Source: Spirochaetaceae bacterium | GTDB lineage: Bacteria > Spirochaetota > Spirochaetia > Treponematales > Treponemataceae | Assembly: GCA_017382775.1 (NCBI GenBank) | Contig: JAFNZQ010000224.1 | Span: 1 to 10,651 of the forward strand | Direction: 5' to 3' | DNA length: 10,651 nucleotides | In this document: one piece after another, positions 623-10,651 of the stretch | Layout: every line of letters starts with the position of its first letter | Numbering within the stretch: the first letter of the stretch is position 1 | The notes under the pieces: model-generated | What the model was told of the DNA's origin: nothing | What the model saw: only the letters and a program-made list of their open reading frames with translations | The model's database searches: none | Position numbers and translations under genes: made by a program

Positions 623-701
623 GAGGCGTATATACGAGTATGTCATTTTTTGTTTTTTGTAACAAAGTCGAAAATTCTTTTTTTTAATCTTGGAGAAAAA
701 A

Positions 702-2177
702 ATGGAAGGCGAACAAACCGGTTTAGCCGGAGAAATGCTTGCGGAAGTTGCGGTTGCCCCCGAAAGACCTAAAAGAGTGGTGCGCAAGGTACGCAAAGCT
801 CCTGAAAAAACCGAAGAGCCGGAGATTCCGGTTGAACCTCAACAACCTGTAACGGAACGTGCAGATAGTTTTGAAGAAAATATAAATGGTGATTCTCAAC
901 CCCGCATGGTTATGAATGATTTAATTCTGAGAAGCATGCAGGAGTTGCGGGATTTAGCAGCCCAGTACGGTGTTTCACGGGAAGATTTGGCCCCTATGAA
1001 AAAACAGGATGTAATCCTGTGCATTTTGAAACGTCATGTGGAACACGGGGGTTCCATTTTCGGATCAGGTGCCTTGGAAATTACCGAAACGGGATACGGA
1101 TTTTTGCGTTCTCCCCAAAACAACTATTTGCCCGGTCCCAACGATATTTACATTTCTCCGGCGCAGATTCGCCTGTTTAACCTTAAAACCGGCGACACCG
1201 TTTTCGGCCAGATTCGCACACCGAAAGAAAACAGCAACACCGAAAAATACTTTGCCATTTTGCGAGTGGAAACCGTCAACTTTGACGATCCCAGAGTGGC
1301 ACAGACTCGAATTCCCTTTGAGAATTTGACTGCGCTCTATCCCGATGAAAAAATCAATTTGGAAACGGAAAATCCCGAAATTGCCAACCGTGTGATGAAC
1401 CTCTTTTGTCCCATCGGAAAAGGTCAGCGTTCTCTCATTGTGGCACCGCCCAAGGCCGGAAAAACAATTTTGATGCAGAAAGTGGCCAACGCCATTATTG
1501 CCAATCACCCGGAAGTGTACCTCATTGTGTTGCTCATTGACGAGCGTCCGGAAGAGGTTACGGATATGGAACGCAGCATTAACGCCGAGGTTATTTCCTC
1601 AACCTTTGACGAACAGGCCACTCGCCACGTTCAGGTTGCGGAAATGGTTTTGGAAAAGGCCAAACGATTGGTTGAACACAAACGGGATGTGGTTATTTTC
1701 TTGGATTCCATAACCCGGTTGGCTCGTGCATACAACCAAACCGTTCCCACTTCGGGAAAGGTTCTTTCCGGCGGTGTGGATTCCAACGCATTGCATAAGC
1801 CGAAACGGTTTTTCGGTGCTGCTCGTAACATCGAAGAAGGCGGCAGTTTGACAATTATTTCCACCGCCCTTATTGAGACCGGAAGTCGAATGGACGAGGT
1901 TATTTTCGAAGAATTCAAAGGCACGGGAAACATGGAAATCAACCTTTCCCGCAAACTTGCCGATCGCCGCATCTTCCCTGCCTTCGACGTCAAGAAATCC
2001 GGCACACGCAAGGAAGAAATGCTCTTAACGGAAGAAGAGTTGGCCAAAGTATGGCTCTTGCGTAAGGTTATCAGCCCCATGGATGAAGCAGAAGTTATGG
2101 AACTTCTCATCGATAAAATGAAGAAAACAAAAAATAACGAAGCCTTTTTGCGTTCAATGAACACAATGGGTGAGTGA
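702..2177 (+). CDS. rho: Transcription termination factor Rho
   Basis: Rho is the hexameric RNA-dependent ATPase that binds nascent RNA and releases RNA polymerase. The product is 491 residues, longer than E. coli Rho (419) because of a charged, low-complexity N-terminal extension of about 70 residues rich in Lys, Arg, Glu and Pro. Then come the Rho N-terminal helical domain (about 75-115), the cold-shock-like RNA-binding domain (about 118-190, with GYGFLRS), and the RecA-type ATPase. The ATPase has Walker A APPKAGKT (248-255), the [10 protein letters not shown] segment (280-289), Walker [11 protein letters not shown] (330-339), the Q-loop around LSGGVD (355-360) and the R-loop [14 protein letters not shown] (405-418). 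I chose ATG 702 over the in-frame TTG at 690 because GGAG at 692-695 then sits six bases upstream as the ribosome-binding site. rpmE follows after 14 bases. All catalytic motifs are intact. Confidence 0.98.
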
Positions 2178-2191
2178 AATAGGAGTGAGTG

Positions 2192-2392
2192 ATGAAAAAA
2201 GATTTGCATCCGGAGTATTTCGACACAAAGATTACTTGTGCCTGCGGAAATGTTATCGAAACCCGTTCAACGGTGAAAGACATCAAGGTGGAAATTTGTT
2301 CCGCCTGTCATCCCTTCTTTACGGGAAAACAGAAACTTGTTGATACAGCAGGACGTATCGAGAAGTTCAACAAGCGCTATAACATTAAATAG
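2192..2392 (+). CDS. rpmE: Large ribosomal subunit protein bL31, zinc-binding form
   Basis: This 66-residue protein is bL31, which sits at the intersubunit bridge of the ribosome. It begins [10 protein letters not shown], and CxC (Cys16, Cys18) with CSAC (Cys36, Cys39) forms the four-cysteine zinc site of the C+ type that is typically expressed in zinc-replete cells. The family hallmark HPFFTGKQK follows, then [10 protein letters not shown] at the C terminus. ATG 2192 is preferred over the in-frame GTG at 2189, because AGGAG at 2181-2185 is six bases upstream of the ATG. It lies 14 bases after the rho stop, so the two are almost certainly one transcript; the rho-rpmE order is common in bacteria. 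Confidence 0.97.
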
Positions 2393-5050: not shown

Positions 5051-5056
5051 CCTCCT
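5051..5056 (-). promoter_or_regulatory. Consensus ribosome-binding site of the TlpA-like gene
   Basis: AGGAGG lies six bases from the ATG at 5044. Its first two bases are the last two bases of the upstream gene's TAG stop, so terminating and initiating ribosomes meet at the same site. Confidence 0.8.
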
Positions 5057-5867
5057 AGTTTATTGCATGAAAATTACATGCGTTTTTACATTTATTGCAT
5101 CGAATACATTCGGAATCGTTTATTTTCAAGCAGTTCATTTCACAGGAAGCGACACATGCACCGCATCCGGTACATTTTTCTTCCATTACTTTAACGTTGG
5201 CAAGGCAGAACCGGTTAAAAAGTCCGTAAATTGCCCCCAACGGACATAGGAATTTACAAAAAGGTCGTAGTATCATAACCGATAATACAAGTATTGTCAA
5301 GGTTACGCAAATTTTTATCCAAAAATAAATTCCCAAAGATGCGCGAATTTGGGAATTTACTGCGGAAATGGGAATGGCCCCTTGGAGAATTCCCTGGGGA
5401 CAAATAAATTTGCAAAAGGCAGGTAGTGTCATAAAATTTAGGGATGTGATTGCGGGAATTGCCACAACAAAAATGGCCAGAATAAAGTACTTTATCTTAG
5501 AAGCCTCTTGGGGAATAAGACGGTTGTTAAATTTTTTTCCGGGGATTTTATGCAGCAAATCCTGCAAAAGGCCGAAGGGGCAGAAAAAACCGCAAATTTT
5601 ACGACCTAGGAGTATGGAAAATGCCAAAATAATTCCTGCAACATAGGCCAATGTTCCCAAATCCCCGAAGCAACTTTGCAGACTTCCCAAAGGGCAAGCA
5701 AAAACGGCTGCGGGACAGGAATAGCAATTAAGGCCCGGTGCACAAAGGAATTTGGTCTTTCCCTTATACAAAAAACCGGTGGCAAAATTGTGTACATAAC
5801 AGTTTGAAGCAAAGGTCCAAAAAAACTGGGTTGCAATTCGTTTGTGTTTGGCCAAAAAATCCTTCAT
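5055..5867 (-). CDS. Polytopic membrane 4Fe-4S protein, NapH/CcoG-like polyferredoxin
   Basis: This 270-residue protein has about five hydrophobic segments and many cysteines. An N-terminal loop holds Cys42, Cys48, Cys51 and Cys58 (CAPGLNCYSC...ACPLG). Three membrane-edge CxxxCP motifs follow: CGFFCPFG (Cys92, Cys96), CKFICPQG (Cys152, Cys156) and CKFLCPLG (Cys204, Cys208). The C terminus is a two-cluster ferredoxin: CTGCGACVASC (Cys232, 235, 238, 242) and CIRCNKCKNAC (Cys254, 257, 260, 264). This is the layout of NapH/NosR/CcoG-like proteins that move electrons across or along the membrane. Lying between a CxxC mini-protein and a TlpA-like thioredoxin, it plausibly passes low-potential electrons to exported thiols (inference). 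The ATG at 5867 follows GGGGTGA and lies one base after the preceding stop. Confidence 0.88.
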   Translation of the reverse strand: MKDFLAKHKRIATQFFWTFASNCYVHNFATGFLYKGKTKFLCAPGLNCYSCPAAVFACPLGSLQSCFGDLGTLAYVAGIILAFSILLGRKICGFFCPFGLLQDLLHKIPGKKFNNRLIPQEASKIKYFILAIFVVAIPAITSLNFMTLPAFCKFICPQGILQGAIPISAVNSQIRASLGIYFWIKICVTLTILVLSVMILRPFCKFLCPLGAIYGLFNRFCLANVKVMEEKCTGCGACVASCEMNCLKINDSECIRCNKCKNACNFHAIN

Positions 5868-7659: not shown

Positions 7660-8679
7660 ATGAAGAAAATTAAGATAGGCTCTGTGGGATTGGGACGATT
7701 AGGTTTACAGCATGCAAAAAACATTGCATCTTTACCCAACGCAGAGTTGGTTGCCTTATGTGATGTGAATGAAGAATGTCTAAAAAAAGAAGCCACGGCC
7801 TTGGATGTTCCCAAAACATTTACCGACTTTAACGCCATGATTGCGGATAAGGAAATTGATGCGGTCTGTATTGCTTCTCCCTCCGCCTTACATCCTCAAC
7901 AGGTTTGTGCCGCCTTGGATGCAGGCAAACACGTTTTTTGCGAAAAGCCCCTGGGAATTACGGTGGAAGATTGCCGCCTTGTGGAAAAAGCCTGTGCCGC
8001 TCACAAAGATTTGATTTTTCAACTGGGGTTCATGCGACGTTTTGACGATTCCTATGCCTACGCAAAGGAAAAAATAGATGCAGGCCACATTGGCAAGCCG
8101 ATTTTATTCCGTTCATACAGTCAAGATCCGGAAAAGTTTATTGAAGGAGCCATTGCCTTCGCACCCCATTCCGGCGGCCAGTTTTTCGATATGGCCGTTC
8201 ATGACATCGATTTGGCACGATGGATGATCGGTGACGAACCTGCGGAAGTTTGGGCCATTGGCGGCTGTTATGCCCACAAGGAATTTGCCCAATACGACGA
8301 CGGTGACAATGTGTCCGCATTGATGAAATTCAAAAGTGGCGCCATGGGCTTTTTATTCGCCGGCAGAACGGCCCCCCACGGCTACAATGTGGAAACGGAA
8401 ATTATCGGTACAAAAGGTACATTGCGAATCGCCTCGGTTCCTCAAAAAAATTTGGTGGAAGTCCTTGGAAATGGAGGAATAACCCGTGAATGTAGCGAAA
8501 ACTTCCTGGAACGATTCGAAAAATCATATTTGTCGGAAATGAGTGCCTTTTGCGAAGCCGTTATTTCCGGAAAACCTGCTCCCCGTGGCGGTACGGCGGA
8601 AGACGGTCGGCGGGTCACGGAAATTGCCTTTGCTTGTCGAGAGGCCTTTATTTCGGGACAGCTTCATAAAATTTCGTGA
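7660..8679 (+). CDS. Gfo/Idh/MocA oxidoreductase, inositol 2-dehydrogenase-like
   Basis: This 339-residue protein belongs to the Gfo/Idh/MocA family of NAD(P)-dependent sugar and polyol dehydrogenases and most resembles myo- or scyllo-inositol 2-dehydrogenases, which oxidise inositol to an inosose. The N-terminal Rossmann fold has GLGRLG (10-15) and Asp35 in ALCDVN, which favours NAD. The catalytic set is present: EKPLG with Lys96, then GGQFFDMAVHDIDLARW with Asp177 and His181, corresponding to Lys97, Asp172 and His176 of Bacillus subtilis IolG. GFMRRFD (123-129) is also typical. It has its own promoter and a GGAGGAG ribosome-binding site. No other inositol gene is nearby, so it stands alone and the substrate is uncertain. 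Its 3' end faces nrdG with 42 bases between, and I see no clear terminator there. Confidence 0.88.
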   Translation: MKKIKIGSVGLGRLGLQHAKNIASLPNAELVALCDVNEECLKKEATALDVPKTFTDFNAMIADKEIDAVCIASPSALHPQQVCAALDAGKHVFCEKPLGITVEDCRLVEKACAAHKDLIFQLGFMRRFDDSYAYAKEKIDAGHIGKPILFRSYSQDPEKFIEGAIAFAPHSGGQFFDMAVHDIDLARWMIGDEPAEVWAIGGCYAHKEFAQYDDGDNVSALMKFKSGAMGFLFAGRTAPHGYNVETEIIGTKGTLRIASVPQKNLVEVLGNGGITRECSENFLERFEKSYLSEMSAFCEAVISGKPAPRGGTAEDGRRVTEIAFACREAFISGQLHKIS

Positions 8680-8721: not shown

Positions 8722-9432
8722 TCACCGAAGTCGTGCATTGGGGACTTTTGTTTTTGCCAAGTCCGCGAGGGATTGCAGTTTTGCCTCATCATAGGGTATC
8801 AAATCATTGAATTGGGGATTCAAACAGTTTTCGGCACGAAATTGGGCCAAGAACCAGTTTGCATCTTTCGAAACGGATTCGCCAATTTCCGTAATTTCCC
8901 GGCTGTCCACCATGGTGGGAACTAAAACTGTGCGTATTTCATAACTGTCAACATCCAAAGCTTTGAGAAAATCCAAGGTGGCGAGAATTTTTTCCCCGTA
9001 ACCTTGGCCCAAAAGGGAGTCGTATCTTTTTGGAGATGTTTTGACGTCCACGGCCAAATAGTCCGGGCGAGTTTCGTCATTTTCGAAAAGGGAAATCAAT
9101 TTTTCGGGCAATGTGCCATTTGTGTCCAGTTTTGTTGCAAGGCCGAAGTCCTTGGCCATTTCCAAAGCTCGAGGGAGTAACGGACTCAAAAGGGCCTCTC
9201 CTCCGGATGCCACAAAGCCGCTTAAAACCTTGTGTCGTTTTTGAAAAAATGCTTCCAAATCTGCCAATGACAACAGTTCCTCTTGGGGGATGTCACCATG
9301 CACCACCGCATGATTGTAGCAATATGGGCATCGAAGGTTACATCCCACAAAAAACATCACCGCAGATACCCTCGTGGGGAAATCCACCAGTGATGTTTTT
9401 ACAAGAGTTCCCGCTTTTGCGTCTGTTAGCAA
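8722..9432 (-). CDS. nrdG: Anaerobic ribonucleotide reductase activating protein (radical SAM)
   Basis: NrdG uses S-adenosylmethionine and a 4Fe-4S cluster to abstract hydrogen from a glycine and thereby activate class III ribonucleotide reductase. The product is 236 residues. LVKTSLVDFP (10-19) is the conserved family start, the cluster motif is GCNLRCPYCYNH (Cys31, Cys35, Cys38), SGGEALLSP (76-84) contacts SAM, and the end QFRAENCLNPQFNDL...VPNARLR is typical of the NrdG2 subgroup. Since the conserved region begins by residue 10, the start must be the TTG at 9432, not the ATG at codon 26. The TTG overlaps the upstream TAA by seven bases, with GGAAGA upstream as a weak ribosome-binding site, suggesting coupled translation. 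Its target glycine lies in the preceding gene, not in nrdD. Confidence 0.92.
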   Translation of the reverse strand: MLTDAKAGTLVKTSLVDFPTRVSAVMFFVGCNLRCPYCYNHAVVHGDIPQEELLSLADLEAFFQKRHKVLSGFVASGGEALLSPLLPRALEMAKDFGLATKLDTNGTLPEKLISLFENDETRPDYLAVDVKTSPKRYDSLLGQGYGEKILATLDFLKALDVDSYEIRTVLVPTMVDSREITEIGESVSKDANWFLAQFRAENCLNPQFNDLIPYDEAKLQSLADLAKTKVPNARLR

Positions 9433-9971
9433 ACTTTCTTCCGAAGCTCGGTGCCGAAGATTTTTTCCAAATCAGCCACCGAAGAGGCGCGAGAAATTTC
9501 AATTCCGTTGGCATCAAAGAAAACTACGGTGGGAGCGGACAAAACACCCAATTCCGCGGCTCTTTCGAAGCCTTCTGCTGTATCCACATCCACGGAGGAA
9601 CCGGCACAATCGACGGATTGCATGAATTCTCTCACAGGAGGACAGTTGGGGCAGGTTTTTCGTGAAAAAAATTCGAAGTAGGCAATTTCGTTATAAATAG
9701 TTCGTTCCACAGGTTGGAATGTGGAACAGTTGCAGGCAGAATCCGCTGCGGTAATGGTGTAAGTTTCGGTTTTCGCGGCCTTTTTGCTGTCAGTTTTCAA
9801 TTCAAACATTTTGCGAATTCCGTATTCTTCCCGTTTGCCTTTGTTCCAATTGCGTACGGAACGATAGTATCCAACAATTCGAGCGTAAACTTCTGTGTCT
9901 CCGCCTTTAACGTTTTCCAACTGTCCTTTAACGTTGGCAATGTCTCTTTCAACTTCTTGTAAAGTTCTCAT
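9426..9971 (-). CDS. Separate glycyl-radical domain of class III RNR fused to a redoxin domain
   Basis: The 181-residue product has two parts. Residues 1-22 are a charged helix, followed by TEVYARIVGYYRSVRNWNKG (26-45), then KREEYGIRKMF. This is the C-terminal glycyl-radical segment that normally ends NrdD, with Gly34 as the radical site. After a linker containing Cys80 and Cys82 comes a thioredoxin/glutaredoxin-like domain (about 95-175): a beta strand IAYFEFFS, the active site CPNC (Cys107, Cys110), a strand around VDVD, cis-Pro147 in LSAPTVVFFDANG, and a final helix. The start is ATG 9971, with AGGGAGGG four bases upstream and 20 bases after the nrdD stop. I infer that it completes the truncated NrdD in trans, is activated by NrdG, and supplies reducing thiols for turnover. 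Fold and motif calls are strong; the mechanism is inference. Confidence 0.88.
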   Translation of the reverse strand: MRTLQEVERDIANVKGQLENVKGGDTEVYARIVGYYRSVRNWNKGKREEYGIRKMFELKTDSKKAAKTETYTITAADSACNCSTFQPVERTIYNEIAYFEFFSRKTCPNCPPVREFMQSVDCAGSSVDVDTAEGFERAAELGVLSAPTVVFFDANGIEISRASSVADLEKIFGTELRKKVC

Positions 9972-9975
9972 ATTT

Positions 9976-9983
9976 CCCTCCCT
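9976..9983 (-). promoter_or_regulatory. Strong ribosome-binding site of the glycyl-radical/redoxin gene
   Basis: AGGGAGGG sits four bases before the ATG at 9971, inside the 20-base gap after the nrdD TAG. It shows that the second reading frame is initiated independently rather than being the debris of a frameshift. Confidence 0.85.
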
Positions 9984-9991
9984 CTGTATGA

Positions 9992-10651
9992 CTATGATGA
10001 GGCCAAAATCGCAGCCTTTTCCTGCTCCAATTCCGCCAGTTGAGCACGCAATTTTCTTTCCGCTTCCTGCTTGCAAAGCGGACATTCAAAATGTTCGCCG
10101 TCCAAATATCCGTGGATTTTACACACCGAAAAGGTGGGCGAAATCGTTATATACGGAATTCGGTAATTTGCCGTAACGGTACGAACCAAGTCGCGACAAG
10201 CTTTCCAGTCCTTAATGGATTCTCCCATAAATGTATGAAAAACCGTGCCACCTGTGTACTTTGTTTGCAAAGATTCTTGATGATCCATTGCATCGAAAAT
10301 ATCCGATGTATAATCCACAGGAAGCTGTGACGAATTGGTGTAGTAAGGATCGTTTTCGCCGGAAGTTATAATGTCCGGATAATTTGCCTTATCGTGGCGA
10401 GCAAGGCGATAACTGGTGCTTTCCGCCGGAGTTGCTTCCAAGTTGAACAACTCTCCGGATTCTTCCTGATAGTCCGCCAAACGTTCACGCATGTGGGCAA
10501 GAACTCTTTCCGCGAATTCCTTTCCTTTTTTGCTCACAATGTCGCAACCAAGGAAGTTGAGACAACATTCGTTCATTCCGCAAAGTCCGATGGTGTTAAA
10601 ATGGTTGTCCAATTTGGATAAGTAGCGACGAGTGTAGGGGAAAAGTCCGCC
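9992..10651 (-). CDS. nrdD: Class III anaerobic ribonucleoside-triphosphate reductase, catalytic body lacking the glycyl-radical segment (5' end outside window)
   Basis: NrdD reduces ribonucleoside triphosphates to deoxynucleotides by radical chemistry under anoxia. The open frame enters at 10651; the last 219 residues are visible. GGLFPYTRRYL (1-11), GMNECC (25-30, holding the presumed thiyl cysteine), NLEATPAESTSYRLARHDK, QTKYTGGTVFH and NYRIPYITISPTFS are all class III signatures. The zinc site near the end is CKIH...CPLC, with a histidine in place of one of the usual four cysteines. The protein then ends in a charged helix, ERKLRAQLAELEQEKAAILASS, and a TAG. A normal NrdD continues here with an RVxGYxRPxxxWNxGK segment carrying the glycyl radical; it is absent, and the next gene supplies it. 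The catalytic parts are well conserved, so this is not an ordinary decayed gene. Confidence 0.95.
   Translation of the reverse strand, partial: GGLFPYTRRYLSKLDNHFNTIGLCGMNECCLNFLGCDIVSKKGKEFAERVLAHMRERLADYQEESGELFNLEATPAESTSYRLARHDKANYPDIITSGENDPYYTNSSQLPVDYTSDIFDAMDHQESLQTKYTGGTVFHTFMGESIKDWKACRDLVRTVTANYRIPYITISPTFSVCKIHGYLDGEHFECPLCKQEAERKLRAQLAELEQEKAAILASS

Follow-up and report, generated by a model that had tools for sequence, protein, structure and literature searches.

Class III ribonucleotide reductase (RNR) is irreversibly inactivated by oxygen (PMC12288474). The nearest known systems to the one described here are the split class II RNR NrdJa/NrdJb, the small protein GrcA/YfiD (to which vs.6 of phage T4 is related) and phage nrdD genes that mobile elements have interrupted. 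NrdJa/NrdJb is likewise a cellular RNR in two chains, but belongs to another class and has another cut. GrcA/YfiD is a small separate protein bearing a glycyl-radical enzyme's glycine, but it duplicates a segment that pyruvate formate-lyase has and repairs the cleaved enzyme (PMC8683613), whereas the NrdD here lacks the segment. Phage nrdD also occurs in pieces, broken by introns, inteins or homing endonucleases; these are mobile-element interruptions, some of them shown to be spliced (PMC12363816), whereas the spirochete split always falls at one domain joint, with junctions of −4 to 357 nt or with the genes far apart.

Judged from sequence, this oxygen-sensitive enzyme for making DNA building blocks is encoded in Treponema-related spirochetes as two separate proteins. 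It has in common with the class III NrdD enzymes of Thermotoga maritima (4COI/4U3E) and the Prevotella copri family (8P23) the barrel, the zinc site, the finger-loop cysteines, the ATP-cone and NrdG; unlike in those enzymes, the glycine is on another polypeptide, a redoxin is attached, and there are extra helices at the cut. The initial annotation of this DNA knew of no description of a split NrdD, and in the open-access literature we found no report of a cellular NrdD whose glycyl-radical segment is encoded by a different gene, the subscription literature being hardly covered. Public records already label some of the small proteins as this reductase, and annotators may thus be aware of them.

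The window, the whole 10,651-nt stretch that was analyzed, is an entire contig (G000:C162) of a genome that is 81.5% complete in 308 contigs, which the initial annotation had not noted; nrdD is open at position 10651 because the contig stops there. On the minus strand the end of nrdD is followed by the small gene and then by nrdG2 (Table 1), which places an NrdG activase, scored above the TIGR02495 cut-off, beside the split pair; with its TTG start, if that is correct, nrdG2 shares 7 nt with the end of the small gene. The coordinates of the initial annotation hold, both for an nrdD that ends right after its zinc site with no radical motif and for a small gene 20 nt on with its own ribosome-binding site, 181 codons and Gly34. 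The small gene does carry the motif, with Gly34 in RIVGYYRSVRNWNKGK, but does not begin with it as had been stated: about 22 helix residues come first. The thioredoxin-fold half with its CPNC motif was absent from that annotation. Elsewhere in the window, naming by eye, we take 2-523 (−) to encode MoaC, 690-2177 (+) the transcription terminator Rho, 2189-2392 (+) ribosomal protein L31, 4562-5044 (−) and 5055-5867 (−) a TlpA-like thioredoxin next to a cysteine-rich membrane ferredoxin, and 7660-8679 (+) a sugar-dehydrogenase-like protein.

Table 1. Coordinates of the nrdD, small-subunit and nrdG2 features in the window.
Feature	Position	Strand	Basis
nrdD large subunit, last 219 codons	9995..10651	-	PF13597 335-531, 222.9 bits; NF006126 453-657 of 684
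nrdD stop TAG, ahead of any glycyl-radical motif	9992..9994	-	sequence
Gap between nrdD and small gene, 20 nt	9972-9991	-	sequence
Likely ribosome-binding site of small gene, AGGGAGGG	9976..9983	-	sequence
Small subunit gene, 181 aa, ATG 9969-9971, stop 9426-9428	9426..9971	-	ORF; 2274 homologues
Small-subunit N-terminal amphipathic helix, residues 1-22	9906..9971	-	missing from the 9 fused NrdDs examined
Glycyl-radical segment, residues 23-56; Gly34 9870-9872	9804..9905	-	PF13597 533-562; Gly34 invariant in 58
Thioredoxin-fold domain, residues 98-172; CPNC 9642-9653	9456..9680	-	AF2 model, Foldseek, invariant residues
nrdG2, radical-SAM activase	8722..9432	-	TIGR02495 139.2 bits, cut-off 131.15

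Both pieces exceed the Pfam NRDD cut-off of 26.2 bits (PF13597, 562 positions), and their matches, to positions 335–531 and 533–562, place the cut between the zinc site and the radical loop. In the large piece the C-terminal zinc site (CxxH...CPLC) precedes the stop, with a helical tail of 26 residues after it. The two genes lie in different reading frames, so the break is not a lone in-frame stop; a 219-aa ORF at 9426-10085 is the small-gene frame extended upstream into nrdD. The N-terminal piece of nrdD was found at C85:3-461, behind an nrdR-like gene. This gene, directly before nrdD, encodes a second ATP-cone protein that reads as NrdR from its N-terminus, and its ATP-cone match supports nrdR. 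Together, the C85 and window pieces cover NRDD positions 1–161, 335–531 and 533–562 of 562; the part encoding the catalytic finger loop could not be located in the contigs of this genome and lies in a gap of the assembly. At 81.5% completeness, the genome yielded neither a further NRDD match nor PF02867.

In the small protein, the radical segment and the redoxin domain are joined by a variable linker. The ten-residue blocks from 101 to 170 of the AlphaFold2 model have pLDDT values of 95–98; the whole-protein mean is 81 and the pTM 0.51, and the relative placing of the radical and redoxin halves is thus not fixed by the model. Foldseek matches the redoxin half to thioredoxins, with target-normalised TM-scores of 0.35 to 0.67 among the matches listed, and the thioredoxin fold, the CxxC motif and the cis-proline are all present, with Pfam redoxin matches below their cut-offs. 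Gly34, C107, C110 and P147 (the cis-proline) are invariant in 58 aligned sequences; the homologue search that returned 2274 proteins was restricted to 0.55–1.75 of the small-protein length. Median dN/dS from 377 non-independent pairs is 0.045 for the helix plus radical segment (270 usable pairs), 0.09 for the redoxin (370) and 0.22 for the linker (332), indicating that the small gene is under purifying selection. Six of the eight genomes of genus g16 have a small protein that matches the radical half alone (open frames of 106–148 aa), so the redoxin is dispensable there. At one locus (L027, in G005) the small gene is broken between its halves, with the N-terminus duplicated and the redoxin half in another frame.

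A small-protein match is present in 30 of 39 genomes, the source genome included. Among 118 genomes of the family, 93 were read as having a truncated NrdD, and 92 of these have the small gene. Four of the truncated NrdDs run off their contig before the end (G007, G040, G079 and G097, the last without a small gene). All 89 genomes in which the end is seen have the small gene: 74 next to nrdD on the same strand, 12 at least ∼95 kb away on the same contig, and three on another contig (G006, G084 and G090; reading to the end of NrdD in these three showed no radical segment). Small-protein matches without this truncated NrdD occur in G012 (which has the other truncated type), G052 (51% complete) and G129 (weak, redoxin part only). 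For the small protein, the families returned by Pfam and NCBIfam are those of NrdD and of redoxins, with none of the pyruvate formate-lyase glycyl-radical type. It is therefore very unlikely to be a GrcA/YfiD-like spare part for another glycyl-radical enzyme, even though cleaved pyruvate formate-lyase is served in trans by YfiD (PMC8683613): the small protein covers the final 30 NrdD-family positions, which its neighboring NrdD lacks, and it accompanies the truncated NrdD throughout.

An intact NrdD was found in 35 of the 118 genomes, 17 of which also have the split pair. In a high-quality set of 87 genomes (at least 90% complete, at most 5% contaminated), the split pair is the sole RNR detected in 25 (26 counting G079), that is, neither an intact NrdD nor PF02867 (classes I/II) was found. 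A further 25 have the pair with PF02867, 17 the pair with an intact NrdD and one the pair with the B type and PF02867, so that 26 and 17 of the 87 combine the pair with PF02867 and with an intact NrdD, respectively. Without the pair, 12 have an intact NrdD only, two have it with PF02867 and one with a weak small-protein match; the remaining genomes have the B type with a small gene (one) or PF02867 only (two). A complete nrdD elsewhere with a decayed locus here, and a sequencing error joining the two frames, both named in the initial annotation as refuting the split, are excluded for the group; no second NRDD match was found in the incomplete source genome.

The 113 junctions, deduplicated by exact sequence only, range from −4 to 357 nt, with TAA (84), TGA (19) or TAG (10) as the stop and frame offsets of 45/36/32, the 45 being in frame. 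Start codons were chosen partly by the strength of the ribosome site; a figure of 112/113 is biased by this choice and was set aside. Scored against an NrdR-box consensus, a box-like 16-mer occurs in 59 of the 84 junctions longer than 60 nt (50 base shuffles gave a mean of 0.72 and a maximum of 5), in none of the 29 shorter ones, and not in the window's own 20-nt gap. Many small genes have their own NrdR-like box, and a separate regulatory site is thus frequent. That read-through, frameshifting or splicing still yields a single fused chain, as the in-frame junctions and the known introns and inteins of phage nrdD (PMC12363816, PMC3653736) might lead one to suppose, is extremely unlikely when all three frame relations occur, stops and NrdR-like boxes lie in between, and the genes are at least 95 kb apart in 12 genomes.

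These 12 genomes belong to the only two genera in which far-apart pairs were seen, g16 (G015, G046, G056, G063, G070 and G077) and g20 (G047, G057, G064, G071, G078 and G085), and 10 of them are single contigs. A distance of 95 to 825 kb separates the two genes, or 2.2 Mb in G057 (less if the chromosome is circular), so that read-through, frameshift or splicing could not join them. In G015, G047 and G057, the three of the 12 in which both places were read, one place holds nrdD behind an nrdR-like gene and the other the small gene with an nrdG-like gene, both neighbors being named by eye. From this placement it follows that, in at least these 12 genomes, the radical glycine must act in trans if NrdD works. 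As NrdD lacks the radical segment, the small protein is an obligate subunit on the same condition. An assembly or sequencing error, or the recent decay of a fused nrdD, might be suspected of a draft metagenome bin with fused relatives, and is refuted by the far-apart pairs; we give it practically no weight, since the separate small gene recurs in every truncated-NrdD genome with the end seen, closed genomes included, its junctions are varied and it is under purifying selection. The separate, trans-acting radical subunit proposed in the initial annotation survives on the same grounds: co-occurrence in 89/89, spacing of ∼95 kb or more in 12, varied junctions and purifying selection.

Copies of the small gene at G053:C15:37135-37569 (L238; another G053 copy is on C32) and G012:C25:5-424 (L094) have no nrdD in the available stretch. 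In G078, a second, weak and diverged radical-protein-like match (C1:1993139-1993306, L290; RVSGYFRPVRDW...) ends in a stop, remote from both nrdD and the main small gene.

Reading past the zinc site in 104 NrdDs, a set rich in family f1, identified 95 split and nine fused proteins. The MCCR finger loop is present in all 104 and the barrel motif GYC[AS]GW in 103 (94/95 split, 9/9 fused); a regular expression for the start of the ATP-cone matches 81 of the 95 split and none of the nine fused. Truncated NrdDs whose end is seen stop at NRDD position 528–538 of 562, and the radical glycine is not C-terminal in the NrdD chain, being on the separate small protein. Residues 184–682 of the G004 large subunit align to residues 103–615 of the 651-aa T. 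maritima NrdD (4COI).

When the alignment of small proteins was searched against the phylum, 223 of 392 genomes gave a match, in many cases a weak one; among the matches listed, fusions are open frames of 785–877 aa in families f9, f12, f13, f20 and f58. One in-match stop codon was counted in each of G418, G422, G265 and G335. The one-chain relatives that had been named as grounds for rejecting the split thus exist, as 9 of the 104 NrdDs, but are another architecture and do not refute it. All nine carry a redoxin; a further fused NrdD without one (L033) is partial and stands outside the nine. In the fused proteins three residues separate the last zinc cysteine from the radical segment, whereas the 95 split NrdDs end in a tail of 22–37 aa and the split small proteins have ∼22 residues of helix before the segment. 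Hydrophobic residues at a/d positions exceed 300 shuffles at both helices (0.558 versus a mean of 0.431, and 0.845 versus a mean of 0.460), and we infer that these extra amphipathic helices on either side of the cut are docking helices. In a tree of 45 rows, whose far outgroups are too long-branched to root it, the fused label needs five changes, at least three of them forced by well-supported branches, indicating that fission or fusion occurred several times.

Considered together, these comparisons of genes and genomes make it very probable that this class III RNR is made as two proteins, with the radical glycine on the small one. In this reading the large NrdD keeps the ATP-cone, barrel, finger-loop cysteines and zinc site, and the small protein bears the radical glycine together with a thioredoxin-like domain in most members. 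NrdG would install the glycyl radical on the free small protein, whose radical loop would then enter the NrdD barrel, held by the helices of both partners at the cut, and generate a thiyl radical in NrdD. In the P. copri enzyme the radical domain is mobile: it is ordered in one monomer with ATP and disordered with dATP, although radical formation persists (PMC11226230). Since such a domain comes and goes from its docking site in any case, a cut would naturally fall there, and the free small protein could be charged by NrdG.

The attached redoxin would re-reduce the active-site disulfide. MCCR class III enzymes appear equipped for formate or thioredoxin use (PMC9669993), and an attached redoxin fits a built-in reductant. 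The same equipment would also suit an enzyme whose radical half works as proposed, with formate as the reductant and the redoxin serving another role such as oxygen sensing or tethering. The six g16 genomes that match the radical half only and the redoxin-free L033 lend this some weight; we consider it rather unlikely, as the CxxC and cis-proline are invariant in the 58 sequences and the redoxin is also fused to NrdD at the nine fused loci.

The example of YfiD (PMC8683613) makes it plausible that a small protein damaged by oxygen could be replaced. More tentatively, the small protein might be an exchangeable radical-and-electron cartridge, separately regulated, replaced after oxygen exposure and serving NrdD from anywhere in the genome, that arose repeatedly in unrelated NrdD lineages, in spirochetes and in Clostridia, and that phages even provide by itself for the NrdD of their hosts. 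If real, a radical subunit that is cheap to replace would give anaerobes a new means of protecting DNA synthesis, and class III radical transfer would become accessible as a two-protein reaction. It would also imply that many truncated-looking NrdDs of gut bacteria need a tiny, overlooked partner to be complete.

The same joint is also where a second NrdD subfamily is split, apparently in Clostridia as well. In G011, G012 and G017, another NrdD stops after the zinc site and is followed by a separate radical protein of ∼50–70 aa; two of this type (L093 and L102) have a single-cysteine MGCR motif. A pattern search found no radical segment in 119 of the best 120 of 7998 scored homologues of the second type, a few of them partial matches and all found with a query that itself lacks the segment, which favors such matches. 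These homologues include proteins from Oscillospiraceae, Ruminococcaceae, Lachnospiraceae, Elusimicrobium minutum and Brucepastera parasyntrophica. Separate radical proteins of 48–54 aa come from Oscillospiraceae and [Clostridium] fimetarium records, among 6733 matches that will include fragments of fused enzymes. Pygmaiobacter massiliensis has one protein of each kind, and for both the longest contig is 42,090 bases, which suggests that its NrdD and radical protein share a contig.

Seven viral contigs, whose records may be fragments, carry a standalone radical protein with no other NRDD match in the record (L241 in G437, G438, G439 and G441–G444); that of L241 (5983-6483) also has a redoxin. 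Another viral contig, G440 (L244), carries a split pair. An ORF scan of four short unannotated gut phage records found a GRD-like ORF of 86 aa near the end of MT837046.1 and none in the other three. In Eggerthella phage EL753P1 (OP172808.1; L271, 3741-7172), the annotated nrdD ends without a radical segment, and a radical-like stretch, broken across frames, lies downstream of it.
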